39,024 bases of DNA from contig CANLKN010000028.1 in assembly GCA_947491475.1 (NCBI GenBank), positions 1 to 39,024 on the forward strand, in the 5' to 3' direction. The position numbers and the translations under genes were made by a program. Shown in pieces: positions 7,211 through 33,538 of this stretch. This DNA comes from Akkermansiaceae bacterium. GTDB taxonomy: Bacteria > Verrucomicrobiota > Verrucomicrobiia > Verrucomicrobiales > Akkermansiaceae. The notes under the pieces were generated by a model. It saw nothing but the letters and a program-made list of their open reading frames with translations, did not search any database and was not told the DNA's origin. The number at the start of each line of letters is the position of its first letter. The stretch's first letter is position 1.

Positions 7211-7251
7211 AATGTGTTTCGGAGCTTGTGATGCATTGAATGTTGATGCCG

Positions 7252-7806
7252 CTAAAATCCGTTCGTTTTCCCGTCCGGCGGGCGGTTGTGGATGTTGACG
7301 TTGTCGAGGTGGAAAACCGCCGGGCCCTCCGCATTGCTGATAAACCCGAGCCAGTCGAGCGACTTCCAACCAGCTTGGTGCGGGAGTGCGGTGAAGCGGT
7401 GCGCGGGCTCGCCGGGCACCTGCACGGTCATGTCCCATGTGCCGGCGGACTGCTCCCCCAGCCCGGCCTTGATCTCAAAGTGGATCCATTGATCCTGCGG
7501 TAGCGGCAGGGTTTTGTCCGCCACGCGCAGGACGCCGCCGCTAATGACAAAGCTCGGCCCGGTTAGATACGGCGAGGCATTGTCACGCCATTCTTGCTGG
7601 AGTTCAACGCCGGGGCCGATCCGCAAATCGAACGAGCACTGCGACAGTCCTTCCCGGTGCCGCGGCGCAAACACCAGATGCGGATCAAAGCGGGAATTCA
7701 GTCCCGCTTGATCGGCAAACTTTAGGCTGCGCCGTCCGCTGGCCGCCGCTTCCTCCGTGGGTGCCAGCGTCCCAGCTTCGCCCCCATTGGAAATGGTGCA
7801 AGCGAA
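7252..7806 (-). pseudogene. C-terminal domain separated from the beta-helix gene by a nonsense codon
   Basis: Directly after the TAG of the beta-helix gene the same frame stays open to TAG at 7252. It encodes a lamin-G/beta-sandwich-like ending: 'AAASGRRSLKFADQAGLN', 'FDPHLVF', 'WIHFEIKAGLGEQ', 'GTWDMTVQVPG', 'GWKSLDWLGFISNAEGPAVF' and 'HLDNVNIHN'. In related secreted proteins a 'xFESD' segment normally leads straight into such a domain, so this is the lost tail of the upstream gene and not a separate gene. The 140-residue entry in the ORF track (from 7674) is just the part after the first ATG. No frameshift is needed to join the pieces. A sequencing or assembly error or stop-codon readthrough could also explain the TAG. 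Confidence 0.75.
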
Positions 7807-10549: not shown

Positions 10550-10753
10550 CTACTGAAACAGCCGTTGGGCCGGACCGGCCTGCCTGTCGTAGCCTTGGCG
10601 AAGACTGGAGGGCGGGGAAAAGGGGGGGCAAGGTTCCAGTCTGGCTTCGAAACGGTAAAAGGCAACGCCAGCGACTTGGATGGCGTTACCGGTGTTGGCG
10701 GCGAGGGTGAAGATGAGGAAAATTGCGAGGAAGTGGCGGAGATGTGAGTGCAT
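10550..10753 (-). pseudogene. Signal peptide fused to the last strand of a surface-protein tail (deletion remnant)
   Basis: A 67-codon frame from ATG 10753, 34 bases after the stop of the larger beta-helix gene. It starts with a good signal peptide ('MHSHLRHFLAIFLIFTLA' then ANTGNA) and goes almost at once into 'GVAFYRFEARLEP'. That stretch matches the end of the neighbouring protein ('GGGFYRFEAVLDP'). The rest ('SSLRQGYDRQAGPAQRLF') is readthrough into a repeat-like sequence. The simplest reading is a second gene of the same type that lost everything between its signal peptide and its last C-terminal strand. It could also be a tiny secreted peptide, but nothing supports that. Confidence 0.6.
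10579..10605. repeat. Possible dispersed intergenic repeat
   Basis: The stretch containing 'tgtcgtagccttggcgaag' resembles the short 'GTAG..TTGGCGAAG' sequences that recur in intergenic regions of various bacterial genomes. Only one copy is in this window, so its repeat nature is recalled from other genomes and not demonstrated here. Confidence 0.3.
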
Positions 10754-17076: not shown

Positions 17077-19347
17077 ATGAAATCCAAACTCTATCTGCGC
17101 GCCTTCGGCTTCGCCACCTGCATCGGCTGCCTGCCCCCCCAATCCGCTTCCGCCCAATCGTTTTTTGACAACGGCGGCGGCGACAACCTGTGGTCCAACA
17201 ACCTGAACTGGAACGGCGACGCGCCACCATCCGGCAACATCGCCATCGCTGGTGGGCTCACCGCCATCTCCAACGGCAATGTAAGCCTCTCCATTGGAGA
17301 TCTGACCATCGGCGCGGATGGCTCCTTCGGACTGAACGCAGGCCCGGCAGGCGACGGCACCTTGGAAGTGACCGCCGGCACCTTCTCCACCAGCATCGGC
17401 ATGCGCCTCGGTGTGGCGGCCACCACCACCACCGGCACCCTCACCGTGAAAAACACCGGCACGGTGGACATCACGGCCGGCAATCTTCTCGCAGGCAACT
17501 TCAATGGAATCGCCGCGACAGGAGTGATCAACGTGCAAACCGGCGGCACGCTCAACCTGAGCACCACCGGACTCCAGCGCATCGGGCACGGTTCCAGTGG
17601 CACCTTGAATATCTCCGGCGGCACTATGAACCAAAGCAACGCCATGCTCGAAATCACCGCTGCCGGGGCACTCAACGGTGCTTTCAACATGTCGGCGGGC
17701 ACGCTCAACGTGAACCAGGAAATGCGGGTGGGAAATGCCTTCTCGATCACCACGGCCACCCACTCAGGCGGCACGATCAACAAGCTGGCCACCCAGGTCG
17801 GCAATTATGTGGTGGGAGCCAACAGCGCTCCGGTCAACTACTCCCACACCGGGGGCACACTCAATGTCGAGGACGGGGCCGGGAGTTTTATTCTGGGCTG
17901 GAACAGCGGTGATGTGGAGGGTTTCGGCGGCCAGGTTTACACGCTCAACGGTGGCGACATCAACATCGGCCAAACGTCGAGCACCGGTTTGCGCATCGGC
18001 CTCGGCGCTTTCAAGGCGGTCATGAACGTGCAGAGCGGCAACCTGACCATCGGTGTGGGATCCGGTATCGGGCTCCGGATGGGTGAAGACTTCAACGGCG
18101 TGGGCAATGCGATTCTGAACGTCTCCGGCGGCACCGTCACGGTCAACAGCGGCAACATGTTTGTGGGCGTTCAAAACACCGTCAACGGCAACAGCAGCGG
18201 TCTGGTGACCCAGACCGGCGGCACGGTGACGCTGGCCCCGGGCCAGACCCTGTGGGTGGGAGCCCCGTTCACGACCGCTGTCGGCACTTACAATCTGAAT
18301 GGAGGCACACTTGTCACTAACAGCTTCGGCATCGGCAGCCCCAACGGCGCTATCAACTGGGGCAGCGGCACCCTCCAGAACAACGGAAACATGACTTTCA
18401 ACTCGTCAGTGAACATGACAGACACCGGCATCTGGGACACGGCGGGATACACCGCAACCCAGTTGGCGGGCGTGGACATGTCCGGCACCGGCGGCCTGAC
18501 CAAGACGGGTGCTGGCACGCTCGTTCTCCAGGCAAACAACAGCTACTCCGGCACCACCTCTGTGAACACCGGCACGCTGCTCGTTGATGGAGCCCTGACA
18601 GGCGCAGGCGCGGTCAATGTCGCTTCAAACGCTGGCATTGGTGGCAATGGCGACATTTATGGAAACCTGTCAATCGCCGCCGGAGGCAAATTCGCTTTCA
18701 TTCCGGCAAGCACACTCGGCGTGGTTGGTTCGGTGGTAATCGACGGCACCTTCGGCGTGGCCAGCCTGGTCAATGCGGATCTGACCGCTGTTGACTGGAG
18801 CGCGGTTGCCCCTGACACCTATCCGCTCATCGATACGACGCCCACCGACTTCTCGACACTGGGCATCCAGAACTGGGGGGTGGCGAACGCCTATAACCTC
18901 GGCGGCGGCAAGAGCGCCTACTTCGAAACCCAGGGCGGCGCGGATCTGGTTCTGGTCGTGGTCTCCGGTGGTGCGAACTACTCGTCCTGGGCCAGCGCCT
19001 TCACCAGCCCGGCGCTGTCCAACACCGCATCCACCGCGGATCCTGACTACGACGGCCTGACCAACGCCATGGAATACGCGCTGGGCCTTGATCCCCGTTT
19101 CTCCTCCGCCTCGCCCGGCGTCGCCAGCAACGGCGGCAAGACCATCACCTTCACCAAGGGAGCCGAGGCCAAGGTCAACGGCGATGTTACCTATCAGATC
19201 GAAACCTCCATCTCGCTCGGTGCGGCGCCAAATCCATGGACGCTGGATGTCACGAATGTCACCGAAGACGTCGACACCATCTCGATCACCTTCCCGGCAG
19301 GCCCCTTGAAGAACTTCGCCCGTCTCAAAGTCACCCTCGCCCCTTGA
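17077..19347 (+). CDS. Secreted autotransporter-repeat surface protein with Ca-binding-like C-terminal tail
   Basis: A 756-residue protein. Signal peptide residues 1-26 (cleavage near 'SASAQ'), then a long G/N/T-rich beta-helix passenger with recurring 'GGTLN', 'GTLTV' and 'NISGGTM' strands. A canonical autotransporter-associated beta-strand repeat lies at about 470-503 ('GGLTKTGAGTLVLQANNSYS'). The tail from about 640 carries 'DPDYDGLTNAMEYALGLDP' (a DxDxDG-type Ca loop) and a beta domain ending 'FARLKVTLAP'. No outer-membrane barrel domain is present. Residues 27-440 are almost the same as in the next gene, while signal peptides and C-termini differ. It probably sits on the cell surface. 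It lies 52 bases before its paralogue with no terminator between, so co-transcription is likely. Confidence 0.88.
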   Translation: MKSKLYLRAFGFATCIGCLPPQSASAQSFFDNGGGDNLWSNNLNWNGDAPPSGNIAIAGGLTAISNGNVSLSIGDLTIGADGSFGLNAGPAGDGTLEVTAGTFSTSIGMRLGVAATTTTGTLTVKNTGTVDITAGNLLAGNFNGIAATGVINVQTGGTLNLSTTGLQRIGHGSSGTLNISGGTMNQSNAMLEITAAGALNGAFNMSAGTLNVNQEMRVGNAFSITTATHSGGTINKLATQVGNYVVGANSAPVNYSHTGGTLNVEDGAGSFILGWNSGDVEGFGGQVYTLNGGDINIGQTSSTGLRIGLGAFKAVMNVQSGNLTIGVGSGIGLRMGEDFNGVGNAILNVSGGTVTVNSGNMFVGVQNTVNGNSSGLVTQTGGTVTLAPGQTLWVGAPFTTAVGTYNLNGGTLVTNSFGIGSPNGAINWGSGTLQNNGNMTFNSSVNMTDTGIWDTAGYTATQLAGVDMSGTGGLTKTGAGTLVLQANNSYSGTTSVNTGTLLVDGALTGAGAVNVASNAGIGGNGDIYGNLSIAAGGKFAFIPASTLGVVGSVVIDGTFGVASLVNADLTAVDWSAVAPDTYPLIDTTPTDFSTLGIQNWGVANAYNLGGGKSAYFETQGGADLVLVVVSGGANYSSWASAFTSPALSNTASTADPDYDGLTNAMEYALGLDPRFSSASPGVASNGGKTITFTKGAEAKVNGDVTYQIETSISLGAAPNPWTLDVTNVTEDVDTISITFPAGPLKNFARLKVTLAP

Positions 19348-19399
19348 AATTCCCGTCATTCACATCTCCAAACCACGATTCCAAAAATAAAATCCGAAT

Positions 19400-21334
19400 A
19401 TGAAATTCAAACCATTCCGCACCTCTGCATTCGCCATCTTCATGGGGGCCGCCTTGTCTGGCGTTTCCTCCGCCCAAAGCTATTTTGACAACGGCGGCGG
19501 CAACCAATTGTGGTCGAACAACCTGAACTGGAACGGCGACGCGCCACCTTCAGGCAACATCGCCATCGCCGGTGGACTCACCGCCATCTCCAACGGCAAT
19601 GTAAGCCTCTCCAGTGGAGAATTGATCATCGGCGCGGATGGCTCATTCGGATTCAACGCAGGCCCGGCAGGTGACGGCACCTTGGAAGTGACCGCTGGCA
19701 CCTTCTCCACCGACGTGGGCATACGCCTCGGTCTTTCGGTCGGCGGTCACACCGGCACCCTCACCGTCAAGGACAGCGGCACGGTGAACATCACGGCCGG
19801 CAATCTTCTCGCAGGCAATTACAATGGTGTTGCCGCAACTGGAGTGATCAACGTGCAAACCGGTGGCACGCTCAACCTGAGCACCACCGGTCTCCAGCGC
19901 ATCGGGCACGGTTCCAGCGCCACCTTGAATATCTCCGGCGGCACCATGAACCAGAGCAACGGCACGCTCGAAATCACCGCCGGCGGTGGGCTCAACGGTG
20001 CTTTCAACATGTCGGGGGGAACGCTCAACGTGAATCAGGAGATGCGGGTGGGCAATGCCTTCTCGATCACCTCTGCCACCCATTCCGGCGGCACGATCAA
20101 CAAGCTGGCCACCCAGGTCGGCAACTATGCGGTGGGTGTGAACAGTTCCCCGGTCAACTACTCCCACACCGGCGGCACGCTGAATGTCGAGGACGGGGCC
20201 GGCAGCATGATCCTCGGCTGGAACAGCGGTGATGTCGAAGGGTTCGGCGGCCAAGTTTACACGCTCAACGGTGGTGACATCAACATCGGCCAAACATCCA
20301 ACGCCGGTTTGCGCATCGGCCTCGGTGCCTTCAAGGCCACCATGAACGTGCAGAGCGGCAACCTGAATATCGGTGCGAATTCCGGTGTCGGACTCCGGAT
20401 GGGTGAAGACTTCAACGGTGTCGGCAATGCGATTCTGAACGTCTCCGGTGGCAACGTCACCGTCAATGGCGGCAACATGTTTGTGGGCACCCAAAACACC
20501 GTCAACGGCAACAGCAGCGGTCTGGTGAACCAGACCGGCGGCACATTGACTCTTGCCGTTGGCCAGACCTTGTGGGTGGCCGCTCCAGCCACCACGGCCG
20601 TCGGCACATACAACCTCAACGGCGGCACACTCGTGACGAACAGCATCGGCATCGGCGGTGTCAACGGTGCCTTCAACTTCGGCAACGGCACGCTCAAGAA
20701 CAACGCCAACATGACCACTGCCGCCGCGATGAACCTGACGGCCACCAGCACCTGGGACACCAACGGATTCAATGCCACGCAACTGGCCGCCATGAACGGC
20801 ACGGGCGGCCTGAACAAGGCGGGCGGCGGCACACTCGATATCCAGGCAGCCAACAACTACGCCGGCACCACCCTGGTAAGCGCCGGAACGCTGCTCGTCA
20901 CCGGAAGTCTCGGCGGTGGAAATACCGTCACTGTGGGATCATCCGGCACCATCGGCGGTTACGGATCAATCACTGGCAGCCTTGCCTTCCTGGCAGGCGC
21001 GGACTTCCTGGCAGGCGCGGACTTCCTGTTCGATCCGCTCACCACGCTCACGGTGAACGGCGGCACAGTCTCTTTCGGTGGCTTCAGCGTTGCCGACCTC
21101 TTCGGGTTGACCAACGCAGTGTCGGAGGGCACCTACACGCTCATCGACGGCTCAGCGACCATTAACTTTGCCAACGTCGCCAACTTCGGTCTGGCCAACG
21201 CCTATGATCTGGGTGGCGGAAAGAAAGCCTACTTCGAATCCGGTAGCATGAATCTGGTGGTCATTCCCGAGCCCAGCGCCGCGCTGCTCGGCGGGCTGGG
21301 CCTGTTCGCCCTTTTGCGCCGCCGCCGCGCATGA
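19400..21334 (+). CDS. Secreted autotransporter-repeat protein with PEP-CTERM sorting tail
   Basis: A 644-residue paralogue of the preceding protein. It has its own signal peptide (cleavage near 'VSSAQ'), then the shared core starting 'DNGGG..LWSNNLNWNGDAP'. A beta-strand autotransporter repeat is near 469-500 ('GGLNKAGGGTLDIQAANNYA'). The C-terminus is a textbook PEP-CTERM signal: PEP motif, hydrophobic 'SAALLGGLGLFALL' and terminal 'RRRRA'. Such proteins are recognised by an exosortase, which is not encoded in this window. An 18-base tandem duplication (20989-21024) gives 'LAGADFLAGADF'. A strong terminator follows the gene. The role is probably exopolysaccharide- or surface-associated structure. 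Confidence 0.9.
   Translation: MKFKPFRTSAFAIFMGAALSGVSSAQSYFDNGGGNQLWSNNLNWNGDAPPSGNIAIAGGLTAISNGNVSLSSGELIIGADGSFGFNAGPAGDGTLEVTAGTFSTDVGIRLGLSVGGHTGTLTVKDSGTVNITAGNLLAGNYNGVAATGVINVQTGGTLNLSTTGLQRIGHGSSATLNISGGTMNQSNGTLEITAGGGLNGAFNMSGGTLNVNQEMRVGNAFSITSATHSGGTINKLATQVGNYAVGVNSSPVNYSHTGGTLNVEDGAGSMILGWNSGDVEGFGGQVYTLNGGDINIGQTSNAGLRIGLGAFKATMNVQSGNLNIGANSGVGLRMGEDFNGVGNAILNVSGGNVTVNGGNMFVGTQNTVNGNSSGLVNQTGGTLTLAVGQTLWVAAPATTAVGTYNLNGGTLVTNSIGIGGVNGAFNFGNGTLKNNANMTTAAAMNLTATSTWDTNGFNATQLAAMNGTGGLNKAGGGTLDIQAANNYAGTTLVSAGTLLVTGSLGGGNTVTVGSSGTIGGYGSITGSLAFLAGADFLAGADFLFDPLTTLTVNGGTVSFGGFSVADLFGLTNAVSEGTYTLIDGSATINFANVANFGLANAYDLGGGKKAYFESGSMNLVVIPEPSAALLGGLGLFALLRRRRA
20989..21024 (+). repeat. 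18-bp perfect tandem duplication in the PEP-CTERM gene
   Basis: Two adjacent copies of cctggcaggcgcggactt add six in-frame residues (LAGADF repeated). The region is absent from the paralogue, which has diverged here. Confidence 0.85.
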
Positions 21335-21341
21335 TAAGAAT

Positions 21342-21369
21342 TTCCGGAGTTTCCTGGATTTCTCCGGAA
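21342..21369 (+). repeat. 8-bp hairpin just after the PEP-CTERM gene
   Basis: TTCCGGAG (21342-21349) and CTCCGGAA (21362-21369) can form a perfect 8-bp stem with a 12-base loop, eight bases after the stop codon. There is no T-run after it, so it may be an auxiliary 3' structure in front of the better terminator that follows. Confidence 0.45.
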
Positions 21370-21373
21370 TCGA

Positions 21374-21404
21374 AAGGGACCGTCGGTGGGGATCGGCGGC
21401 CCTT
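21374..21404 (+). terminator. Intrinsic terminator after the surface-protein genes
   Basis: AAGGG-(A bulge)-CCGTCG and CGGCGG-CCCTT form an 11-bp stem (one G-T wobble, one bulged A) around an 8-base loop (GTGGGGAT), followed by GTTATT. It separates the surface-protein pair from the rhamnosidase genes that follow on the same strand. Confidence 0.65.
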
Positions 21405-21436
21405 GTTATTGCAGCAGTCTGCCGCAACTTCTCACA

Positions 21437-24400
21437 ATGATCCGACACATGATGCACCGTTGTTTGTTTCCCGCCTTGGCCGCATGCGCCATCTTCAGTT
21501 CCACCGTTCCCGCCGCCGCAGAGGCGGCTCCTGCGGAATCCGTTCTATCAGAACAAGGCTTCCTCAATCCGCCTGATTCCGCCCGTCCGTGGGTCTATTG
21601 GGTCTGGCTGCGGGCAAACCTCGACCGCGAGGGATTGAAGGCGGACCTGCAGGCGCTGCACCGCGCGGGCATCCGCGGCGTGCTGGTCATGATGATCAAC
21701 TTCGGACCGATCCCGCAGGGGCCGGTGGAAATGCACGGCGATGATTTTCATTCCATCGTTCAGGAAACGCTGCGCGAGGCGGCGAGACTCGGCATCGAAG
21801 TGAGTTTTTTCACGCAGGAAGGATGGAGCACCACCGGTGGGCCCTGGGTGCCCGTGGAAGACAGCATGCAGATGAAGGTGTGGAGCGAACTGCAAGTCAC
21901 AGCGGGAACCACCAACCCGACCCTGATGACTCCCTACCAGCGGCACGGGTTTTACCGGGACGTCCGCGTGTTGGCATTTCCGACTCCCGCGAGCGAAAAG
22001 AATCCGTTGAGCAAGAGACATCCCGTGGTGCGATTGGCGGATGGCACTGTGGCAAATGCCGCCGCGCTTTGGGATGGCGATGCGGCCACCTCGCTGTCTG
22101 TGCCGTCAGGTGATGGCGGAGCGCAGCTGACGATCGAGTTAAGTGAACCGATGGATGCCGGACGGCTGCGTTTCACGCCTGGATCCGGTCCCGTTCTGCA
22201 AGGCCAGCCCGCAACGCTGCAGGTATCGGACGATGGCGTGCATTTCCGCGATGTCGCCGCTGCGATCTGGCCCTACTATCATCCGGCGGCGCTGGCGTAT
22301 CCGTGCGGCGACAGATGGCAGGGTGAGGCGGATTTCAAGCCGGTCTCGGCCCGTTGGTTCCGGCTCGTGTTGCCACATCCGGAGCTGAGCCTGTCCGCAC
22401 TGGAAATCCTTCCTCCGGCAGCCGGAGATGCGCCGATTCCGGCTGCGGACGTAATTGATCTAACAGCAAAACTCGGACCCGACGGCCGCCTCGACTGGAC
22501 GGCTCCGGCGGGTGACTGGACGATTCTGCGATTCGGCCACACCGCCATTGGCAGCATGAACCATCCGGCCACGCCGCAAGGAACCGGTTTCGAGGTGGAC
22601 AAGCTGAATGGTGACGCGCTGGAGAAACACGTCGAAACCGGAATGCTCGGTCGAATCCTCCGGGAGGCAGGGCCACTCGCTGGAAAGACGATCAAGTTCG
22701 CACACATCGACAGTTATGAAAACGGCGAGCAAAACTGGACGCATGGCATGGAGACCATATTCCAGAAAACGCGCGGTTATGATCCCACCGCATGGCTGCC
22801 CGCGCTGACCGGTCGCACCGTTGAATCGGCGGGCAAGACCAAGGCTTTCCAACAAGATATCCGCCGAACGATCGCCGACCTGTGGGAGGAAAACAATTAT
22901 GGCAAACTGGCGGAGGTGATGAAGCGCCATGGCATGGGAATGTCCAATGAGCCTTTCGGCGAATTCGTGGCGGACGGCATGCGCGTTTCCGGGTTGGCGG
23001 AAATGCCGATGGGCGAGTTCTGGTATCGCTTCGGCCTGCCCGGCGACGGCTACATGACCGGCCCGGTGAAGTCCGCCTCGGCGGGTGCGAATCTTTACGG
23101 GAGGAAATATGTCGGCATGGAGGCCTTCACCACCGGCGATTGGTGGGACTCGAGCCCCGCCACCCTCAAGCCGCTCGGCGACCGCGCGTTTGCCGACGGG
23201 GCCAACCGGATGATTTTCCATAACTCGCCCGCGCAGCCATCCACCGATCCCCGCGAGAAGCCGGGTTTGCTCTGGACCAATGGGATCTATTTCATGCGCA
23301 ACCTCACATGGTTCGAACAATCGCGTGCCTGGCTCGATTACCTCAGCCGCTGCCAGTTTCTTCTTCAGCAAGGCCACGCGGTCGTGGATGTGGTGTATTA
23401 CGACGGCGAGGGCGGTCACCAGTATTTCAACGGAGCCGCCGGCCTGCAGGACGCCATCGGACATGGTCGCAAGTTCGATCCCGCCGACAAGTTATCATTA
23501 TCCCGCATGTCCGTACGCGACGGCCGTCTCGTGCTTCCCCACGGCCAGGAATACCGTGTGCTCGCCCTGCGGGATGAACAGACCATGAGTTTGGCCGTGC
23601 TGGAAGACGTCGCCCGCCTGGTTCGTGAGGGAGCGACCGTCGTCGGAGCGCCGCCCAAAGCTCCGTCCGGAATGGGCGCTACAGAGGAACAGAAAAAACG
23701 CTTTCATGAATTGGTGGAAGCGCTGTGGGGCCCCGTTACCGAACACAAACAACCTGTTCGCATCACGGCTAGCAGCACATTTCATGGATTCGATGCGCAA
23801 AACCTGGTGAATCGCGCTCAGTTAAACATTCCGCGTGATGGAGTGATGGATCACGCGCTGCTCCAACCGGCGCTCGCATGGTTGAGCCTCGATGAAACGC
23901 AGCCGGTCATCGAGCTCGATCTCGGCAAGAGCCTTCCTTCCGACCGCTTGCTGATGTGGAACCATAATGCCCCCGGCGAAAGGGCTAGGGGTATTGCCAA
24001 GGCCCGGATATTTACCCGGGAAAGTGATACGGCGGAATTCGAGTTGCTCGGCGAATTCGACTTGGCTGCCGGTCCGAATGACGGCTCACCTGCTTCCGTG
24101 GCGGCCACGATTCCGCTCGGGGGACGCTCCGTGCGCCAGGTGCGCATCGAGGCTCTCGAAAATCACGGCGACGCACAATACACAGGGCTCGGCGCGATCG
24201 AAGTAATTCCGGTTGAGGATGGTTCAACCGGCCGCGCCTATGGCAAGGGCATGGTTTTTTCCAGCGGAACAGGGTCGCCGTGGAATAACGCGTTTGCCCG
24301 CCTCAAGCTGGCGCCGGACTTCGAATCCGAAACCACCAATCTGGTTTTCCATCATCGCAAACAGGCCGGAGAAGATTGGTATTTTGTTTCCAATCAACTC

Positions 24401-25528
24401 GACCGCCCGCTGGTGACGGATGGTGTCTTCCGTGTTGCCGGCAAAGTTCCCGAGTTATGGGATCCGGTCACGGGCAACCGGATGGACGCTCCGGTTTGGA
24501 GTGACGAAACGAATGGCCGCACGCGCATCCGGCTTGAGTTGGAACCCTTCGGCTCGGTGTTTGTGGTGTTCCGCCGCGAGCCGGATTCCAAGCCGCACCT
24601 GACTGGAGTGATGGAGGAGGAGATGAATCCTGTTAGAGGAACCGTCGAGGTGCGAAGCGCGATCCTCCACAATCTTGCCACCGGTCAAACCCTCGCCGAT
24701 CTCACCGGGCAGCTGCGTGGCAGGATCGAGGACGGCAAGCTGGCCGTGGATGCGCTTACGGTGGACCGCTGGTTCAACACGGTCGCCGAACGCAATCTGC
24801 GCATCGACATCGACGCGTCGTGGAATGGCGAGCCGCTGAAGCTGCAACTCATCCGCGGCGACACCCTGCAAATCCCGCCGCCACCGAAAGAAGCCGCCGC
24901 CGGATTCTTTGCCGCAGGCGCGGACGGTAAGTGCCGCTTGCTGGCTCGCGAAAACGGGGATTTCTCCCTCGCGTGGAGTGATGGCAAAACTACCCGCCAG
25001 TCTGTGAAAAACCTTGTCCCGCCGATCACGCTGGATGGGCCGTGGCAGGTGAATTTCGACCCCGCATGGGGCGGACCGGAATCGATTTCATTCCCCGCAT
25101 TGTCGGACTGGACGAAGCACGATTTGCCCGGCGTCCGCTACTATTCCGGCACGGCCGAATACATGATCCGCTTCCAGCTTCCGCCGCAGTGGATTGAGAA
25201 AAACGGAGCGGTCGAGTTGGATCTCGGTGCGGTGGAAACGCTGGCGGAAGTCCAGCTCAACGGAAAGGATCTGGGCATATGGTGGAAGCCGCCTTTCCGT
25301 GGAATCATCACCCCGGCGCTCATTGCCGGTGACAACGAGCTGCGCGTGCGCGTCACCAACCAATGGACCAACCGCCTCATCGGCGATGCCGCCCTGCCGG
25401 AGGAAAAACGCATCACACGAACCACCATGCGCCCGTATGGCGCGGACTTCCTGCTCGAGCCCTCAGGCCTGATGGGCCCCGTGAAGCTGCGCCGCCTGTC
25501 AGTGGTTCACACTCAGCCAAATCCATGA
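21437..25528 (+). CDS. GH106-type alpha-L-rhamnosidase, secreted, with inserted discoidin-like domain
   Basis: The start is placed at ATG 21437 (MIRHMMHRCLFPALAACAIF), giving a signal peptide and 1363 residues; the track start at 21386 adds sequence lying in the terminator loop and 5' region. The N-terminal motif 'ARPWVYWVWLRANLDREGL' with 'DLQALHRAGIRGVLV' is characteristic of GH106, as are 'GGPWV' and 'HIDSYENGEQNWT'. A discoidin/F5-8C-like insertion is visible at about 774-925 ('ITASSTFHGFDAQNLVNR'), making this protein about 145 residues longer than its neighbour. The end is a GH2-type sugar-binding sandwich ('LDGPWQVNFDPAWGGPE', 'VQLNGKDLG', 'LRVRVTNQWTNRLIGD'). Likely role: removal of alpha-L-rhamnose from pectic or algal glycans outside the cell. 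Its stop overlaps the next start as ATGA. Confidence 0.88.
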   Translation: MIRHMMHRCLFPALAACAIFSSTVPAAAEAAPAESVLSEQGFLNPPDSARPWVYWVWLRANLDREGLKADLQALHRAGIRGVLVMMINFGPIPQGPVEMHGDDFHSIVQETLREAARLGIEVSFFTQEGWSTTGGPWVPVEDSMQMKVWSELQVTAGTTNPTLMTPYQRHGFYRDVRVLAFPTPASEKNPLSKRHPVVRLADGTVANAAALWDGDAATSLSVPSGDGGAQLTIELSEPMDAGRLRFTPGSGPVLQGQPATLQVSDDGVHFRDVAAAIWPYYHPAALAYPCGDRWQGEADFKPVSARWFRLVLPHPELSLSALEILPPAAGDAPIPAADVIDLTAKLGPDGRLDWTAPAGDWTILRFGHTAIGSMNHPATPQGTGFEVDKLNGDALEKHVETGMLGRILREAGPLAGKTIKFAHIDSYENGEQNWTHGMETIFQKTRGYDPTAWLPALTGRTVESAGKTKAFQQDIRRTIADLWEENNYGKLAEVMKRHGMGMSNEPFGEFVADGMRVSGLAEMPMGEFWYRFGLPGDGYMTGPVKSASAGANLYGRKYVGMEAFTTGDWWDSSPATLKPLGDRAFADGANRMIFHNSPAQPSTDPREKPGLLWTNGIYFMRNLTWFEQSRAWLDYLSRCQFLLQQGHAVVDVVYYDGEGGHQYFNGAAGLQDAIGHGRKFDPADKLSLSRMSVRDGRLVLPHGQEYRVLALRDEQTMSLAVLEDVARLVREGATVVGAPPKAPSGMGATEEQKKRFHELVEALWGPVTEHKQPVRITASSTFHGFDAQNLVNRAQLNIPRDGVMDHALLQPALAWLSLDETQPVIELDLGKSLPSDRLLMWNHNAPGERARGIAKARIFTRESDTAEFELLGEFDLAAGPNDGSPASVAATIPLGGRSVRQVRIEALENHGDAQYTGLGAIEVIPVEDGSTGRAYGKGMVFSSGTGSPWNNAFARLKLAPDFESETTNLVFHHRKQAGEDWYFVSNQLDRPLVTDGVFRVAGKVPELWDPVTGNRMDAPVWSDETNGRTRIRLELEPFGSVFVVFRREPDSKPHLTGVMEEEMNPVRGTVEVRSAILHNLATGQTLADLTGQLRGRIEDGKLAVDALTVDRWFNTVAERNLRIDIDASWNGEPLKLQLIRGDTLQIPPPPKEAAAGFFAAGADGKCRLLARENGDFSLAWSDGKTTRQSVKNLVPPITLDGPWQVNFDPAWGGPESISFPALSDWTKHDLPGVRYYSGTAEYMIRFQLPPQWIEKNGAVELDLGAVETLAEVQLNGKDLGIWWKPPFRGIITPALIAGDNELRVRVTNQWTNRLIGDAALPEEKRITRTTMRPYGADFLLEPSGLMGPVKLRRLSVVHTQPNP

Positions 25529-28500
25529 CACCTGGATACCTCAGACATCTGGTTCTTGTTTCCGCGAGCGCCATTTTATTTTCCAACCTTCACGCTGCGG
25601 AGAATGCAGGCAAGCAGCAGCAGCTTGAGCAGTCGTTCGCAGCCCCCACGGAAACACGCAAGCCGTGGTGTTATTGGTATTGGATCAACGACCACATCAC
25701 CCGGGAAGGAATCACCAAGGATCTTGAAGCGATGGCGCGCGTCGGGATCGGCCAGGCGGTCATCGGCAATATTTATCTGGTCGGGATCTACGGCTACAAC
25801 GAACCGGCCGGAAACGTGAAAGTGCTGACTCCGGAATGGTGGCGCATGGTCGATCATGCCCTGACAGAGGGCAAACGCGTGGGCGTGGATATTTCAATGT
25901 TCAATTCGCCCGGCTGGGGGCAGGCCGGCGGACCGTGGGTGAAACCGGAGGATTCCAACCGTTATCTCGCGTTTTCCGAACTCCGGGTGATGGGACCGCA
26001 GAAGTTCATTGGAACTGTGCCTGCGCCTGGTGAGAATTTTCAGGATGTCGCACTGCTGGCCGTGCCGATGGCCGATCCCGCCAGCCTCGCGGAAGCGGGC
26101 GCGGCGCTCACCAGCACGCCGGCGATTCCAGAACCGGAAAACATGATCGACGGCAGCCGCGAAACAAGCGCCACCATTCCGGCCGGCAACTCGTCGCTGG
26201 ACATCACATTTCCCGAAGCGCGTGAAATCCGCAGTCTCGTGATTCAATTGGCGAAGCACGGCTGGAAGGGCGATGTCAAAGTGCAGTCGGAGCTGCCGGA
26301 TGGCACATGGCAGGATCTCGGCCACGTGAACGCCAACCGCTGGGATCCGAATCCCGCCGTGGGATTCCTCCCGGCCGGCCCGGTCTCGCTCGCGATTGAA
26401 CCGACCACCGCAAAACGGTTCCGGATTCAGTTTCTCGGTGTGGAAGGTGCCATGGAAATCTCAAACCTCCTGCTCACTCCCGGTGTCTGGATGGAACAAT
26501 TCACCGAGAAACAGCTTGGCCGCATCCATCCGGGGCCGCTCACCCCATGGAAGGAAAACATGTGGCCGCAACAGGCGGATGCCACGGGCAAGGCGTTCAC
26601 GACAGGCGACGTGATCGACTTATCTAACAAGATGTCACCTGACGGCTCGTTCACCTGGGATGTCCCGCCCGGCAAGTGGGCCATTCTCCGCGCCGGAATG
26701 CTTCCCACCGGAGCAAAAAACGGCCCGGCCTCGCCGGAAGGCACCGGTCTGGAAGTGGACAAACTCAATGCCGGCGCGGTGCGCAGGTTTTTCGACGCCT
26801 ACATGGGCAAGGCCGTCAGCATGGCGAGCGCCAGCGGCCATGAATCGCTGGCCTATGTGCACTCGGACAGTTGGGAAACCGGACCACCGGGATGGACGGA
26901 CGATTTCGAGAAAACGTTCGAGGCGCGTTACGGCTACAGCCCGCGCCCGTGGCTGCCTGTCCTTGCGGGGCGCGCCGTGAACAGCCGCGCGGATTCAGAC
27001 CGCTTTTTGTGGGACTATCGCCGCCACATCGCCGACCGCACCTCATCGGATTATGCCGGGGAACTGCGCCGCGCCGCCAATGAACACGGACTGCGATTCT
27101 CCTATGAGAACTACGGGCACTTCGGCTTTCCCGGAGAATTCCTCCAAATGGGAAAGAATGCCGATACCCTGCTCGGGGAGTTCTGGAAAGAGGGCGAACT
27201 CGGCACCATCGAACTGCGTGCGGCGTCTTCCGCCGCGAATATCTATGGGAAAAACCAGGTCTCGGCGGAAGCCTTCACTGCTGGCGGCCCCGCATTCCAA
27301 ATCACTCCCGCCGCGCTGAAAGCACGGGGCGACTGGGCATTTTGTGAGGGCATCAATCACTTCGTCCTGCATCTCTTCATCCATCAGCCGTGGAATGACC
27401 GCGTGCCAGGCATGAATGCGGAATTCGGCTTCGAATACAACCGGAGCAACACATGGTTTGAAAACAGCCGGTCCTGGATCGACTACCTGCGGCGCTGCGG
27501 CTTGATGCTGGAGCAGGGATTCCGGGTGGCGGACGCGGCGTATTTCATCGGTGAGGACGTGCCCAAGAATACCGGCATCCGCGATCCGGCCCTGCCGCCC
27601 GGCCGCGATTTCGATTATATCAACTCGGAGGTTCTCGCGACGGCCACCGTCCGCGATGGGCTGATCACACTGCCGCACGGCGTCGCCTATCCGGTGTTGG
27701 TGCTGCCGCCTCTCGATACGATGCGCCCGGAAGTCCTGCGCGCCATCCGCAACCTCGTCCTCGCCGGCGCCACCGTGCTCGGAAATCCGCCGGAACGCTC
27801 GCCGAGCCTGGAAAACCAGCCAAAAGCGGACGCCGAAGTCCGCCAACTGGCCGGAGAACTCTGGGGCAACGCTGCCGAACCGCTGCGCCAGGTCGGCAAA
27901 GGCCGCGTCGCGCGCGGCATGAGCATGGAGCAGGTTTATGCTTTGCTCAAACTGCCGCCCGATCTGGAAACCACCGTTCCAATCCTCCACACCCACCGCA
28001 GGGATGATCATAAAGACATCTACTTTCTAACAAACCAAGCCAGCGCCGATGTCTCCTTCGATGCGACCTTCCGCATCGATGGCAAAGCGCCTGAAATCTG
28101 GGATCCGGTGCATGGAACCATCATCCGTCCGGCGAATTATGACTTTGTCGATGGCCGGGTGCGCATGCCCATGCACCTCGGCCCGGCCGGTTCCGCGTTT
28201 GTCGTTTTTCGCGAGGGTAATCCGGCACCCGCCGCCGGGCAGCGTATCGTCGCCTTGCACAAGGACGGCCAGGCAGTTTCCACTTCAAAATCCAGTAACA
28301 ACGGCATGGAAATTATTTCCGCGAAATACGGGATTCCCGGAGATGATGCACGCACACTCGACGTCCGCGAAACCCTTTTGAAAGCGCTGAAGAGCGGTCA
28401 ACGTCAAATCCCAATCGCGTCGTTCGCCACGCCAAGTGATCCCGCGGTCGGTGTCGTGAAAACACTGCGCGCGGAACTGCGGGTGAATGGTGCATCCGTT

Positions 28501-29181
28501 CTGCTGGAGGGCACGGACCCCGAAACCATCGAACTGCCGCGCCTCCCGGCCGCGCCATGGCCGGCGGAGGCATTAATCAGTGCCGATGGCAAATCCACCC
28601 TGCGTATTTGGCAGCCCGGAATCTATGACATCTCGCTTGATGGCGGGAAAGTCCGGCAGATCGATACCCGCAATCTGGCCTCCCCACTCATCATCAACGG
28701 CCCGTGGCAGATTGCTTTTGAGCCCGCACGAGGCGGACCGGAGACCATCACATTTCCAGAACTCATGGATTGGACAAAACATGAACTGCCCGGAATCCGC
28801 AACTATTCCGGCAAGGCGCGCTACCACACCGAGTTCACGCTGTCGGCGGAAGTATCCAAACAACCGCTGATGCTGGATCTTGATGATGTGCGTGATCTTG
28901 CCACCGTGACACTGAACGGAAAAACATTCGCCACACTCTGGTGTGCCCCATGGCGGCTTGATGTCACCAGCGCCGTGCGTCCGGGAAATAACATCCTTGA
29001 AATCCAGGTCGTCAACACCTGGAACAACCGCCTCGTCGCGGACCATCCACTTCCACAAAACGAGCGGCTGACATTTCTCGCCGCCCCTACGGTCCGCCAA
29101 ACCGACCTGCTGCCCGCAGGTCTTCTCGGCCCTGTAAAGCTCCGCGCCGCACACGTGTTTTCATTGGCTCCATCTCCATGA
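25525..29181 (+). CDS. GH106-type alpha-L-rhamnosidase, secreted (second copy)
   Basis: The start is at ATG 25525, overlapping the upstream stop (ATGA), with a signal peptide directly behind it ('YLRHLVLVSASAILFSNLHA'); the track start at 25363 lies inside the upstream gene. The 1218-residue protein has the GH106 signature 'KPWCYWYWINDHITREGIT' with 'DLEAMARVGIGQAVIG', 'SPGWGQAGGPWVKPEDSN' and 'HSDSWETGPPGWTDDFE'. A discoidin-like segment sits at about 200-310. The C-terminal sugar-binding sandwich is present ('INGPWQIAFEPARGGPE', 'VTLNGKTFATLWCAPWRLDV', 'NTWNNRLVADHPLP'). It is clearly homologous to, but well diverged from, the preceding gene, which suggests two different rhamnosyl linkages or substrates. 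Confidence 0.9.
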   Translation: MTPGYLRHLVLVSASAILFSNLHAAENAGKQQQLEQSFAAPTETRKPWCYWYWINDHITREGITKDLEAMARVGIGQAVIGNIYLVGIYGYNEPAGNVKVLTPEWWRMVDHALTEGKRVGVDISMFNSPGWGQAGGPWVKPEDSNRYLAFSELRVMGPQKFIGTVPAPGENFQDVALLAVPMADPASLAEAGAALTSTPAIPEPENMIDGSRETSATIPAGNSSLDITFPEAREIRSLVIQLAKHGWKGDVKVQSELPDGTWQDLGHVNANRWDPNPAVGFLPAGPVSLAIEPTTAKRFRIQFLGVEGAMEISNLLLTPGVWMEQFTEKQLGRIHPGPLTPWKENMWPQQADATGKAFTTGDVIDLSNKMSPDGSFTWDVPPGKWAILRAGMLPTGAKNGPASPEGTGLEVDKLNAGAVRRFFDAYMGKAVSMASASGHESLAYVHSDSWETGPPGWTDDFEKTFEARYGYSPRPWLPVLAGRAVNSRADSDRFLWDYRRHIADRTSSDYAGELRRAANEHGLRFSYENYGHFGFPGEFLQMGKNADTLLGEFWKEGELGTIELRAASSAANIYGKNQVSAEAFTAGGPAFQITPAALKARGDWAFCEGINHFVLHLFIHQPWNDRVPGMNAEFGFEYNRSNTWFENSRSWIDYLRRCGLMLEQGFRVADAAYFIGEDVPKNTGIRDPALPPGRDFDYINSEVLATATVRDGLITLPHGVAYPVLVLPPLDTMRPEVLRAIRNLVLAGATVLGNPPERSPSLENQPKADAEVRQLAGELWGNAAEPLRQVGKGRVARGMSMEQVYALLKLPPDLETTVPILHTHRRDDHKDIYFLTNQASADVSFDATFRIDGKAPEIWDPVHGTIIRPANYDFVDGRVRMPMHLGPAGSAFVVFREGNPAPAAGQRIVALHKDGQAVSTSKSSNNGMEIISAKYGIPGDDARTLDVRETLLKALKSGQRQIPIASFATPSDPAVGVVKTLRAELRVNGASVLLEGTDPETIELPRLPAAPWPAEALISADGKSTLRIWQPGIYDISLDGGKVRQIDTRNLASPLIINGPWQIAFEPARGGPETITFPELMDWTKHELPGIRNYSGKARYHTEFTLSAEVSKQPLMLDLDDVRDLATVTLNGKTFATLWCAPWRLDVTSAVRPGNNILEIQVVNTWNNRLVADHPLPQNERLTFLAAPTVRQTDLLPAGLLGPVKLRAAHVFSLAPSP

Positions 29182-29194
29182 GCGAACCGCTCAT
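29178..29194 (+). repeat. 7-bp hairpin overlapping the GH106 stop codon
   Basis: ATGAGCG-AAC-CGCTCAT is a perfect stem with a 3-base loop and includes the TGA stop of the second rhamnosidase. There is no T-tract. It could be a weak terminator or an mRNA 3' structure before the next gene. Confidence 0.35.
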
Positions 29195-29328
29195 TGCTCA
29201 CGGAATCCACTACTTCGCGCCGACATTCGCGGACATGGACCTTCGCACATTCAACTGCCATCTCGGATGGTCCCTCACGTAAAAGCGTTTGCGGATCAGG
29301 GTATAGGCAGTAATCGTCACTCAAACCC

Positions 29329-32300
29329 ATGACACAAACGCTCTTTTTTCGCCATTTCAGGCAAGTTTCATACATGCTGACCGCCGCCCTGGTGCTGGGC
29401 GGCCAAGCACTGAACGCGCAAACCAACCTGCTTGCCAACGGCGGCTTCGAACTCGGCAATACAAATGGTTGGACCACCTTCGGCAACACGCTCACGGCAT
29501 CTACGGCGCAGAAGCGCACCGGAAGCTATTCCGGCGCGGCGACGAATCGGACGGCAACCAATCAGACGGCGGTCATTAACGCGCTGCCGCTGGTCACGGC
29601 GGGAAAAACCTACCGGTTTTCCGTGTGGGTGCGGCTCGCATCCGGATCGGCTTCAATGAGCCTGGTGCTGGCCCGGCAGGATGCCAATCCGCGGACCATC
29701 ACGACTCTGCATACCGTCACCGCGAACACGGGGTGGACCGAGCTCACGGGCACATTCACCCATGATCCGGTGGGTATTGCCACGGAACTTAACATTTATC
29801 CCACCTGCGCGAACGCCTCACGCAACCTTTATCTCGACGACGCCCAACTGGTGAGGGTGGACAACCTGCTGGCTAACGGCGGCTTCGAACTCGGCAACAC
29901 CAGCGGCTGGACGGCAGCAGGCTCGGCGATCAACGCATCCACCTCCGAGAAGCGCAGCGGTCAATACGGCGGCTTTGTTTCCGGCCGCACGGTGGAGTGG
30001 CACGGGGCATGGCTCAATGGTTTGCAGACGGTTCTGACGCCGGGCAAGACCTATCGGGTTTCCTTGTGGATCAAGCCGGCTGCCGGGACGGACATCGAGG
30101 TGCAATTGACGACCAAGCAGACGAACGGCGGCGCTGAGCCTGTATATGGGCCGGTCTTGCAACAGCGCGTCTGCACGGCAGGGGAATGGTCGGAGCTTTC
30201 CGGCGGATTCACTTATATCAATCCCGGGAACACCACTGAGTTGAGCTTTTTCGTTTACTGCTTGGACACCACACGCAGTTATTCCATCGACGATGCGGAG
30301 GTGCGCATTGACGAGTTGAGCGTGGACCTGGCGGTGACGGGGGCTCCCGTGACGCAAAAGGCGACGGGATTCCTCCATGGCCTGGGAGACACCGCGCCCT
30401 CGACTTCGTTCTATGAACCGCTGAAGCCGCGTATCCAGCGCTTTCCGGCATTCCTCGCCAACCCGAACATACTCGGCATCCCCACCGGATTCGGCTCGCC
30501 CGCCTACATGAACCGTCTGAAAGCCGTCGGCGCCAGACAGCAGGTCTTAATCTCCGATGAGTATATGTGGTTCGGTCATCACAATTCGTGGGGTTGGCCC
30601 GGAGATGCCGCCCACGATGGATACACCTCCTATCAGCTTTTGGATGAAAAAATCGACAGTCTCTTGGATCACGCGCTGGCGAATTTCCCGTCCTTGGCCG
30701 GCTGGCAGATCGAGTGGGACATCTGGAACGAGCCAGACTATGAATATTTCTGGGGAAGGTCCCAGGCGCAGTTCTTCGAGACATGGAAGCATGCCCACCA
30801 AAGGGTGCGCGCCAAGGATCCGAATGCGGTGATCGTAGGCCCGAGCATTGCTTTTTTTGTGACAAAGGGCGCAACCCAGATTCGCGGAGGTTGGCTCAAA
30901 GATTTCCTGATTTATGCCCGCGACAATAACGTGCTGCCGAACATCGTCAGTTGGCATGAGATGATGAACCCCAAGGAAATTCCCGCGCAGGTGCAGATGA
31001 TCAGGGATTTCATGGCTGCCAACGGCATCGCCGACCGTCCGATCGACGTGAATGAATACCAAGGCCCGGGCGAAAACCTGATGCTCAGCCCCGGCAACAC
31101 GATTTCGTTCCTAAGCAGTTTCGAGAGCACTGATGTCCGCCACGCCATCCGCGCCTGTTGGAATGAGGATGCCGCACAGACCGACGGAACCACCAATGGG
31201 CTTTTCCCGGGCCGATTGGACAATATTATGACCATGGCACCCTTCCAGCCGCGGGCGCAGTGGCATGTCTATCGCTCCTATGCTGATATGAGCGGCCGCA
31301 TGGTGCCGGTTGGCAGGGGTGGCTTTCTCAGCGGCCTGGCCTCGGTGAATGTCGCCACCGGCAACGCGCACATTCTCGTTGGCAATGATGGCACGCAGGC
31401 ATTCACCACGAATGTGACGATCCAAAACCTCTCCCAACTCGCGAATTTTTCCACCACCGGAAATGTGCGGGTGCGGGTGCGGGAGATTCCCTATTCCGGC
31501 CTGAACGCGCTGGGCGCTCCCACTGAAATCTCCAATGCCATTCTCACCCCGGCCGGCGACCAACTCGTGCTGCCACTGAGCGTCACCTCGCGCGCGGCCT
31601 ATGAAATCACCTTGCAAGCAATCGGACCGAAAACAGCATCCGCGGCAGACGACGATTGGAACGCACCCGCCACTTGGACCAACGGCATGCCCGTCAGCGG
31701 CGGCGCGACCGGTGTCATCCACAACGTGAGCTTCCAGACAGGAGATTCATGGACCGGCGGCGGATGGGAAAACGGCCTGCTCATCGGCTATGATTCGTGG
31801 GGCGCGAACTGGGAACTGAGCGGCAGCGGTTCGGGAATCCTCAATATCACCGGCGGTAATCTCACCACCGGTTATCTTGGCCTCGGGGCGGGTTTAAATG
31901 GCGGTTCGCAAACTGGCACCCTCAACATCTCCGGCGGCACGGTCACCGCCAATGACACGATGTTGATCGGTTGGTCGGCCGCAGGCGGGTCGTCCGTCAA
32001 TGTGAGCGGCGGCATTTTGAATCTTTCAGGAAACGCCGACACATTTGTGGTCGGTCATGGTGCCGCGGCAGCCATGAATGTCACCGGTGGCACGGTGAAC
32101 CTCGATCGCTCACTGGCTTTCAACAATGGCTCGATCCTCAACATCGGCGGCACGGGCCTTGTGAATCTCAATGCCGGCGGCAGCCTGAGCGCCTCGCCGA
32201 CGATCCAAAGCGGCGGCACACTCAGGTTCAACAGCGGAGCCGGTAATTCTAACAACAACCTGTTCGTCCAAGGTGGTACGGTCGATGTCAACGGCCTGAC

Positions 32301-33153
32301 CCTGGCTGCTGGAACCTGGGCCAACTATCTTTCCACCGCCGATGGCAACCGCATCCTCAACTCCAGTGCCTCGCCCGCCGTCATCGCCGATGGCAACACG
32401 CTGTGGCTATGGAACACTGTCTCGATGACTACCACCATCGAAACCATCGGCGATCTGACCATTCATTCGTGGATTACCGGCTCGCAAGGCCACTATGGAG
32501 GCATCACGAAAAACGGCTCCGGCATGCTCACTCTCACCAATCCCGCCAATGACTACACCGGCCACACGGTGGTGGGCGCGGGCATGCTCCGCCTGAACCA
32601 ACTCAGGCTGGCGGACATCGCCGATGTCCGGATCGCATCCGGCTCTCTGCTGGACTTGAATTTTTCCGGTACGGACAGCATCCGCAGTTTGTATATCAAC
32701 GGCGTGAAACAGGCCGGCGGGACCTGGGGTGCGACCGGTTCCGGCGCGCAAAACAACAGCGCCCTCATTGCCGGCGGCGGCATGTTGCTGGTTTCCGCCG
32801 GTGCGAAGTATGCCGACTGGGCGAACGACAACGGCATTCCCGGCGAACCCGCCACCGATGATCATGACGGCGATGGCATCAAGAATCTGGTCGAATACGC
32901 GCTGGGCTCGGATCCCGTTGTGGCATCCGGCTCACCATCCAGCGTGGTTGAAACCACGGTCACTTACCAGAAAGGAGCCGCCGCCGTGGCCAATGGCGAT
33001 GTGGGTTATGTGATCGAAACCTCCACCACTCTCGCCGCAGGCTCATGGACCGCAGTGACACCCGATGTGAACAACTCTACGTTGATTTCTTTCACTCTGC
33101 CTCCCAACTTGGATCGCGTCTTCGCCCGTCTGCGGGTCACCCAGTCGAATTGA
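29329..33153 (+). CDS. Chimeric secreted glycosidase: two CBM-like domains, GH39-like domain, autotransporter repeats, Ca-binding-like tail
   Basis: A 1274-residue protein. A signal peptide ('MLTAALVLGGQALNAQ') precedes two similar CBM4/9-type modules that each start 'LLANGGFELGNT.GWT' (about 32-170 and 183-325). A clan GH-A catalytic domain from about 345 to 660 resembles GH39: 'WQIEWDIWNEPDYEYFWG' (E468, likely acid/base) and 'PIDVNEYQGPGENL' (E576, likely nucleophile), plus a beta-sandwich to about 765. The next 350 residues are autotransporter-type strands ('GTLNISGGTVTANDTMLIGW', 'GGITKNGSGMLTLTNPANDY'). The tail is 'DHDGDGIKNLVEYALGSDP' followed by a beta domain ending 'FARLRVTQSN', the same type as in the protein at 17077-19347. 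An enzyme tethered at the cell surface is the likely meaning. It lies 147 bases after the rhamnosidases and may have its own promoter. Confidence 0.87.
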   Translation: MTQTLFFRHFRQVSYMLTAALVLGGQALNAQTNLLANGGFELGNTNGWTTFGNTLTASTAQKRTGSYSGAATNRTATNQTAVINALPLVTAGKTYRFSVWVRLASGSASMSLVLARQDANPRTITTLHTVTANTGWTELTGTFTHDPVGIATELNIYPTCANASRNLYLDDAQLVRVDNLLANGGFELGNTSGWTAAGSAINASTSEKRSGQYGGFVSGRTVEWHGAWLNGLQTVLTPGKTYRVSLWIKPAAGTDIEVQLTTKQTNGGAEPVYGPVLQQRVCTAGEWSELSGGFTYINPGNTTELSFFVYCLDTTRSYSIDDAEVRIDELSVDLAVTGAPVTQKATGFLHGLGDTAPSTSFYEPLKPRIQRFPAFLANPNILGIPTGFGSPAYMNRLKAVGARQQVLISDEYMWFGHHNSWGWPGDAAHDGYTSYQLLDEKIDSLLDHALANFPSLAGWQIEWDIWNEPDYEYFWGRSQAQFFETWKHAHQRVRAKDPNAVIVGPSIAFFVTKGATQIRGGWLKDFLIYARDNNVLPNIVSWHEMMNPKEIPAQVQMIRDFMAANGIADRPIDVNEYQGPGENLMLSPGNTISFLSSFESTDVRHAIRACWNEDAAQTDGTTNGLFPGRLDNIMTMAPFQPRAQWHVYRSYADMSGRMVPVGRGGFLSGLASVNVATGNAHILVGNDGTQAFTTNVTIQNLSQLANFSTTGNVRVRVREIPYSGLNALGAPTEISNAILTPAGDQLVLPLSVTSRAAYEITLQAIGPKTASAADDDWNAPATWTNGMPVSGGATGVIHNVSFQTGDSWTGGGWENGLLIGYDSWGANWELSGSGSGILNITGGNLTTGYLGLGAGLNGGSQTGTLNISGGTVTANDTMLIGWSAAGGSSVNVSGGILNLSGNADTFVVGHGAAAAMNVTGGTVNLDRSLAFNNGSILNIGGTGLVNLNAGGSLSASPTIQSGGTLRFNSGAGNSNNNLFVQGGTVDVNGLTLAAGTWANYLSTADGNRILNSSASPAVIADGNTLWLWNTVSMTTTIETIGDLTIHSWITGSQGHYGGITKNGSGMLTLTNPANDYTGHTVVGAGMLRLNQLRLADIADVRIASGSLLDLNFSGTDSIRSLYINGVKQAGGTWGATGSGAQNNSALIAGGGMLLVSAGAKYADWANDNGIPGEPATDDHDGDGIKNLVEYALGSDPVVASGSPSSVVETTVTYQKGAAAVANGDVGYVIETSTTLAAGSWTAVTPDVNNSTLISFTLPPNLDRVFARLRVTQSN

Positions 33154-33214: not shown

Positions 33215-33538
33215 GCGCTGGGCGCTCCCACCGAAATCTCGAATGCCATTCTCACCCCGGCCGGCGACCAACTCGTGCTGCCATTGAGCGACACCTCGCG
33301 CGCAGCCTATGAAATCACGCTGGAGTCCGCTGCACCCAAGGTGGTCTCGATCACGCCGATGACGGGCGCTGGCAGCGGACAGGTCCGGTGCCGCGTGATT
33401 TTCGGCCGGGCGGTGGCGGGCTTCGATTCGGCGGACGACGTGACCATCACGGGAACCGGAGCCAGCGTGGCCCGGCGCTTTCTCCGCATGCCTGTTCATT
33501 ATTGGATTTTTGCGGCTTCCGCTGCGGTGTTGGTATAG
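33215..33538 (+). pseudogene. Truncated copy of a glycosidase segment with part of an Ig-like domain
   Basis: Bases about 33215-33321 repeat 31507-31613 of the preceding gene at roughly 90% identity by eye ('ALGAPTEISNAILTPAGDQL', then VLPLS.TSRAAYEITL). The frame then goes a different way: 'PKVVSITPMTGAGSGQVRCR', 'VDSADDVTITGTGAS'-like text (actual: FDSADDVTITGTGAS). That looks like the beginning of an Ig-like or calcium-dependent beta domain, and it breaks off at about 33473. It has no start codon and a TGA in frame upstream. Its last part overlaps the end of the convergent GH2 gene. It is the remnant of a second, related glycosidase gene that was otherwise deleted. The ORF-track entry from 33275 covers only its end. 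Confidence 0.7.

Follow-up and report, generated by a model that had tools for sequence, protein, structure and literature searches.

A 39,024-nucleotide window of an Akkermansiaceae genome, representing contig C28 of the 3.9 Mb metagenome-assembled genome (MAG) G000, encodes three proteins that share the same kind of C-terminal tail, raising the question of what this common protein end is for. Verrucomicrobiota are major degraders of polysaccharides and mucin, and little is understood of how their many extracellular enzymes and adhesins come to be placed at the cell surface. In a survey of fibrillar adhesins, nearly half had no known anchor, and new anchor domains were suggested to await discovery (PMC8286594). 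An earlier note on the window had proposed that the shared tail is a sorting or anchoring signal that works in parallel with PEP-CTERM. The tail forms a single C-terminal domain, termed VCTD here for convenience, and probably serves as a so far undescribed ‘address label’ that assigns proteins to the cell surface or matrix.

Translation of the window placed all three modules at the ends of the proteins P0001 (17077-19347, plus strand), P0002 (29329-33153, plus strand) and P0003 (12602..10788, minus strand). To detect them independently, a hidden Markov model (HMM) was used that consisted of 59 sequences, all from other genomes and none from the window. Among the 526 reading frames of the window this HMM recovered exactly these three proteins, with 106.6 bits for P0001, 105.8 bits for P0002 and 22.1 bits (E 3e-6) for P0003. 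The next frame scored 2.0 bits, and 6000 shuffled tails reached 9.7 bits at most. Chance is therefore excluded for the three full modules, as the scores are far above those of the other frames and the shuffled tails, and the P0003 tail is, judged by its sequence, a true but divergent copy because the HMM still recovers it well above the next frame. The coordinates given in the earlier note, which named no strand, were correct, and P0003 turned out to be encoded on the minus strand: the protein of 604 residues starts with MNSTV at 12602 and stops at 10788, and translation of the plus strand is broken by stop codons.

In P0001 the module covers residues 631-756 (18967..19344) and includes the helix YSSWASAF (18979-19002), the loop DPDYDGLTNAMEYALGLDP (19039-19095) and the last strand NFARLKVTLAP (19312-19344). 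The P0002 module, which is 44% identical to that of P0001, spans residues 1160-1274 (32806..33150) with the loop DHDGDGIKNLVEYALGSDP at 32860-32916 and the last strand VFARLRVTQSN at 33118-33150. In the divergent P0003 module (10791..11201, minus strand) the loop DADGDGLPYAIERLHGTNP is located at 11115-11171 and the last strand FYRFEAVLDPQ at 10791-10823. In front of these tails, all three proteins carry a signal peptide, which is followed by PATR beta strands in P0001, by two CBM4_9 domains, a GH39-like domain and PATR in P0002, and by Chlamydia-PMP repeats and a choice-of-anchor Q domain in P0003. The N-terminal parts, described in the earlier note as otherwise unrelated, are mostly so, the exception being one PATR repeat common to P0001 and P0002. 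BLAST of full-length P0001 against P0002 found no similarity upstream of the module; a weak match between the two was obtained with a truncated copy of the locus (32% identity over 152 residues, E 7e-4).

The module comprises some 120-150 residues and consists of a short helix with a Trp residue, a Ca-loop-like element (DxDxDG...EYALG..P) and an Ig-like beta-sandwich, the final strand of which is of the type F-x-R-L-x-V and ends the chain. The consensus accordingly runs from a Y[AS]xW helix through DxDxDGlxNxxEYxLGxxP and a beta domain with vExSxxLxxW to FxRLxVT at the end of the chain, with Pro as the final residue in 44 of 99 copies. For the P0001 tail together with 59 homologues, AlphaFold2 returned a model with a pLDDT of 90.2 and a pTM of 0.82, in which a helix, the loop and a second helix are followed by six strands, the last of which is formed by residues 122-129 of 131. 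The model of the P0003 tail was weaker (pLDDT 78, pTM 0.66) and starts with the same loop and helix as P0001, followed by eight strands. Foldseek related the P0003 model to Ig-like domains (template modeling score ~0.4-0.5, best E 2e-3) and found no close match for the P0001 model; neither of the two models matched at E <= 0.001. The module is thus predicted to end as an Ig-like beta-sandwich at the extreme C-terminus, the likeness being a general Ig-like one and not specific for the cargo of the type IX secretion system (T9SS). The DxDxDG signature, by which the module had originally been described, is present in the three window tails but is not an essential feature, since copies from Akkermansia-like genomes have lost most of the acidic loop residues. 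In four such copies (L187, L190, L245 and L254 from genomes G113, G082 and G024) the loop is degraded to CPAGDG or VPAGDG, and the helix and an RRFLRLKVTR end are kept; these copies reside on sulfatase-like or GH18-like proteins and follow a BACON-like domain (domain names assigned by eye).

The module is restricted to the C-terminus in a near-absolute manner. This was determined on loci from a species-level genome collection, which had been fetched by the Ca-loop pattern and tblastn and in whose scoring the position within the protein plays no part. Of the 101 full-length copies in the 80 loci named, 99 have 0-7 residues between their end and the stop codon. In a further search the module was terminal in 29 of 30 loci, and within the window’s own genome each of the 23 copies whose end is visible reaches the stop. 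The earlier note had held that frequent copies in protein interiors would speak against a sorting module, and such copies were rare. The collection was scanned with a set of seven close tails, as the 21-tail alignment was too diverse for this purpose. The best 80 of 369 loci, which were the ones kept so that other phyla are possible among the remainder, all belonged to Verrucomicrobiota or the ‘PVC group’ according to their titles, including Akkermansiaceae, Verrucomicrobiaceae and Opitutaceae with Haloferula, Luteolibacter and Prosthecobacter. Within a sample of the phylum, 217 of 289 Verrucomicrobiota genomes were matched at E <= 0.001, many of them weakly. The own genome yielded 24 matches with a two-sequence profile and 40 with the 21-tail profile at E <= 0.05, the weakest of which are doubtful. 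Of two single-contig relatives, one from the same genus has 51 copies, and the other, from the same family, has at least 106 (150 of 273 candidates scored). No match was obtained in plasmid records.

The proteins to which the module is attached differ from one another. The N-terminal parts of 48 module proteins matched 48 Pfam families, most of which occurred in one protein each, with PATR occurring in 11; the families include PATR, Ig, RCC1, invasin, LamG, GH85, sulfatase, subtilase, cyclophilin and others. One of the 48, a nuclease of the ExeM/NucH family (E 9e-155) that also matches the ExeM-GG model, has the module as its end. Signal peptides were enriched among module proteins, with 55 of 75 against 105 of 254 (41%) other open reading frames (ORFs) of the same loci (p 1.5e-6), as called by a crude rule and not by a trained predictor; an association with signal-peptide proteins, for which the earlier note had suggested a test, was thus observed for most module proteins.

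A case of exchanged ends is P0006 (19400..21334, plus strand), the tandem paralog of P0001. The two proteins are 73% identical over residues 1-627 (BLASTP 808 bits), and then the ends diverge into the module in P0001 and PEP-CTERM in P0006 (PEPSAALLGGLGLFALLRRRRA, 21266-21331; PF07589, 20.4 bits, above the cut-off in a genome search). As far as can be read from the two sequences, the pair is a natural swap of C-termini. Among the 14 intact PATR proteins of the own genome with a readable end, six end in PEP-CTERM and eight in the module, and none carries both. Together with the swapped ends of P0001 and P0006, this supports the proposed parallel to PEP-CTERM. Several PATR genes on contigs C6, C43 and C2 of the same genome appear frameshifted or split, reflecting either decay of a repeat family or errors in the MAG assembly. 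Closely related modules also occurred on different passengers: the P0001 module is 76-79% identical to that of what is probably one gene split across contigs C108 and C155, and the modules on C27 and C132 share 71% identity, the passengers being without BLAST similarity in both cases. P0003 additionally carries the NCBIfam domain choice_anch_Q, whose name reflects variable C-terminal anchors.

No named family accounted for the module. Searches of the tails against Pfam (21 and 60 tails) and NCBIfam (21 tails) at E <= 1 identified no named sorting domain, a match that the earlier note had regarded as decisive against a new module, and none of the T9SS models Por_Secre_tail, CHU_C or TIGR04183 was matched. 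PF07589 (PEP-CTERM) gave no match in P0001, P0002 or P0003. The window modules end in FARLKVTLAP, FARLRVTQSN and FYRFEAVLDPQ, without a PEP motif, transmembrane helix or basic tail, and therefore the module is not a tripartite signal of the sortase type. A recurrent weak match to TSP3_bac (PF18884) was below threshold and confined to the loop; its best score in the window proteins was 13.8 bits against a cut-off of 25, and it represented a single loop and no tandem array. The Amuc_1099 family (NF042425) reached a best E of 7.9e-6 among 21 tails; a link to pili was rejected, since the matches whose position was inspected span only the TSP3-like loop. DUF3999 (PF13163) was weakly matched by six of 60 tails (best E 3.8e-6), and three tails that were rescanned gave no match at E <= 0.01. 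Homology to a solved structure was likewise rejected, as a sequence search of the PDB found nothing below E 0.19 and Foldseek gave no match at E <= 0.001. By the tests made, the module appears to belong to no T9SS, PEP-CTERM or TSP3 family. No earlier description of it was found in the open-access literature searched, which leaves most subscription papers and preprints outside coverage.

The exosortase was compared with the module in its distribution, strong copies being defined by a best E <= 1e-9 with E-values read off by hand. An exosortase is present in 214 of 289 Verrucomicrobiota genomes, including one in the own genome (1.7e-47). It also occurs in 95 of the 169 genomes without strong copies and in all 96 genomes with at least 10 scored copies. 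In an Akkermansia-like genus (76 genomes), both were found in 11 genomes, the module only in one, the exosortase only in 46 and neither in 18 (p 0.27). Thus, strong copies nearly imply an exosortase and not the reverse, and the association across the phylum is confounded by ancestry and genome size. The co-distribution could reflect a shared dependence, or no more than a common ancestry and lifestyle. The genome G113, a single contig of 2.7 Mb, keeps two intact terminal modules and gave no exosortase match at E <= 1e-5. It was dropped as proof of independence from the exosortase because it encodes 18 PEP-CTERM proteins, which make it likely that the exosortase gene was recently lost, is frameshifted or was missed.

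We consider it somewhat more probable than all alternatives together that VCTD is an interchangeable sorting or anchoring signal for Sec-exported proteins of Verrucomicrobiota that is read by a surface component. This reading is favored because VCTD resembles the C-terminal domains (CTDs) of T9SS cargo in its restriction to the chain end, its independence of the passenger, its exchange with PEP-CTERM and its terminal Ig-like fold. We infer that VCTD mediates export or anchoring and that it is recognized at the end of the chain. The protein would cross the inner membrane by means of its N-terminal signal peptide, and the tail would fold in the periplasm into the loop-helix part and the Ig-like beta-sandwich, with the last strand as the chain end. 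A component of the outer membrane or the surface may then read the folded end and either export the protein or hold it on the surface or matrix. In this way VCTD would act in the manner of the Ig-like CTDs that T9SS cargo carries and would give such proteins an alternative to PEP-CTERM and the exosortase. More tentatively, Verrucomicrobiota might possess an undescribed export and surface-attachment pathway of their own, equivalent in function to T9SS with unrelated machinery, which reads the folded Ig-like end on up to ~100 proteins per genome in parallel to the exosortase; this farther-reaching version we regard as possible and rather doubtful.

Several observations weigh against sorting or anchoring. 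Two interior copies occurred in the 80 loci. One, in L117, is the first of two tandem modules, the other of which reaches the protein end; the second interior copy, in L118, has additional sequence behind it. The further search added one of 30. The C-terminal 250 residues of L117 consist of the module duplicated in tandem as two nearly identical copies. A swap pair like P0001/P0006 was sought in 116 other genomes of the family and not found, so that it is unique to this genome. Among the genomes with strong copies, 119 have an exosortase and one, G113, does not, and given this near-confinement VCTD may not be independent of the exosortase. The earlier note had suggested a test for co-occurrence with a particular protease or secretion gene; the one-way association with the exosortase was the sole one observed, and no dedicated gene for processing or transport was found. 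The T9SS core component SprA (SprA_N, PF14349) was detected in none of the 289 Verrucomicrobiota genomes, in a search that had no positive control. Sorting or anchoring as originally proposed is partly supported, by the terminal restriction, the lack of a named domain and the parallel to PEP-CTERM, and not by a cognate protease or translocon.

The most serious competitor, which we rate at clearly lower probability, is a domain for adhesion or matrix binding without a role in sorting, which would bind exopolysaccharide, lipopolysaccharide or substrate, perhaps in a Ca2+-dependent manner, after secretion by, e.g., the type II secretion system. An Ig/FN3-like beta-sandwich with a Ca-loop-like element, passengers that include polysaccharide-active enzymes and adhesin-like proteins, and the co-distribution with the exosortase, a marker of an exopolysaccharide lifestyle (PMC1569441), are all consistent with binding. 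However, such domains normally occur anywhere in the chain and in tandem, whereas the module is terminal in almost all copies, and Akkermansia-like copies have kept the rest of the module despite the loss of loop acids. It is improbable that VCTD proteins are accessories that are assembled onto or retained by a PEP-CTERM surface matrix and thereby need the exosortase indirectly. The exosortase in every genome rich in copies would fit this, as would the single strong-copy genome without a detected one, which holds 18 PEP-CTERM proteins, but the tail has no PEP-CTERM part, 46 of the 57 exosortase genomes in the Akkermansia-like genus lack the module with no significant association, and the phylum-wide association is confounded. 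Least probable of all, and quite unlikely, is a role outside sorting in which the module caps beta-helical passengers and helps them to fold or to stay stable. Many passengers are indeed PATR or PMP beta-strand proteins, but the module also ends globular enzymes (sulfatase, GH18-/GH85-like proteins, subtilase, cyclophilin and the ExeM-like nuclease), and the closely related paralog P0006 has PEP-CTERM in its place.

A possible remnant of the module was reported at 10550..10753, and this region, too, is read from the minus strand. It is an ORF of 67 residues in which a signal peptide is followed by VAGVAFYRFEARLEP. The likeness to the module is limited to one motif of ~10 residues (VAFYRFEARLEP), and the ORF gave no match to the module HMM; its origin as a module relic is only suggestive. 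At 10550-10620 (minus strand) the ORF contains ‘SSLRQGYDRQAGPAQ’ within its reading frame, which resembles what a common short repeat of the dispersed kind yields when translated; an inverted repeat was sought around this position and none was found locally.

The module proteins of the window are surrounded by genes for carbohydrate enzymes (21386-29181, plus strand; 33499-36927, 4868-7438 and 7807-9954, minus strand), which encode two tandem GH106 alpha-L-rhamnosidases, a GH2-like enzyme, a DUF6259/GH66-like protein and a GH141-like beta-helix protein. Nearby regulators are a Reg_prop/Y_Y_Y histidine kinase (13741-16929) and an AraC regulator (37470-38312), both on the minus strand. The region is probably devoted to the utilization of a rhamnose-rich polysaccharide. 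A named VCTD profile would allow dozens to ~100 exported proteins to be annotated in each genome, among them the sulfatase and GH18-type enzymes of Akkermansia-like species, and reduces the question of surface placement to a simple fusion or truncation test.

Compared with known systems, the loop of VCTD (DxDxDG..N..EYxLG.xP) resembles a single TSP3 loop as in TSP3_bac and the Amuc_1099 family, but the matches remain below the curated cut-offs and cover ~20-35 of the 120-150 residues, and TSP3 repeats, unlike VCTD, occur in arrays and in the protein interior. GlyGly-CTERM/rhombosortase and LPXTG-type signals have the same logical role; in contrast to VCTD, they are short tripartite signals of motif, helix and basic residues. 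The ExeM nuclease family has a GlyGly-CTERM branch in NCBIfam, to which the ‘ExeM-GG’ model is tied, and one homologue carries VCTD instead. With PEP-CTERM/exosortase signals VCTD has in common that it is terminal, interchangeable, present in many copies and located on signal-peptide proteins, and it replaces PEP-CTERM on paralogs; it differs in being a globular domain without the three sortase-type elements. From the T9SS CTDs of Bacteroidota (Por_Secre_tail PF18962/TIGR04183; CHU_C PF13585), VCTD is set apart by the additional N-terminal Trp helix and Ca-loop/helix, by the lack of a KxxxK end and by matching none of the T9SS models. In T9SS cargo the Ig-like end is needed for export, and loss of even two end residues hinders transport (PMC5445135). 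Both tails are folded Ig-like beta-sandwiches at the extreme C-terminus of signal-peptide proteins, with many copies per genome, unrelated passengers and conserved last strands (PMC5445135).

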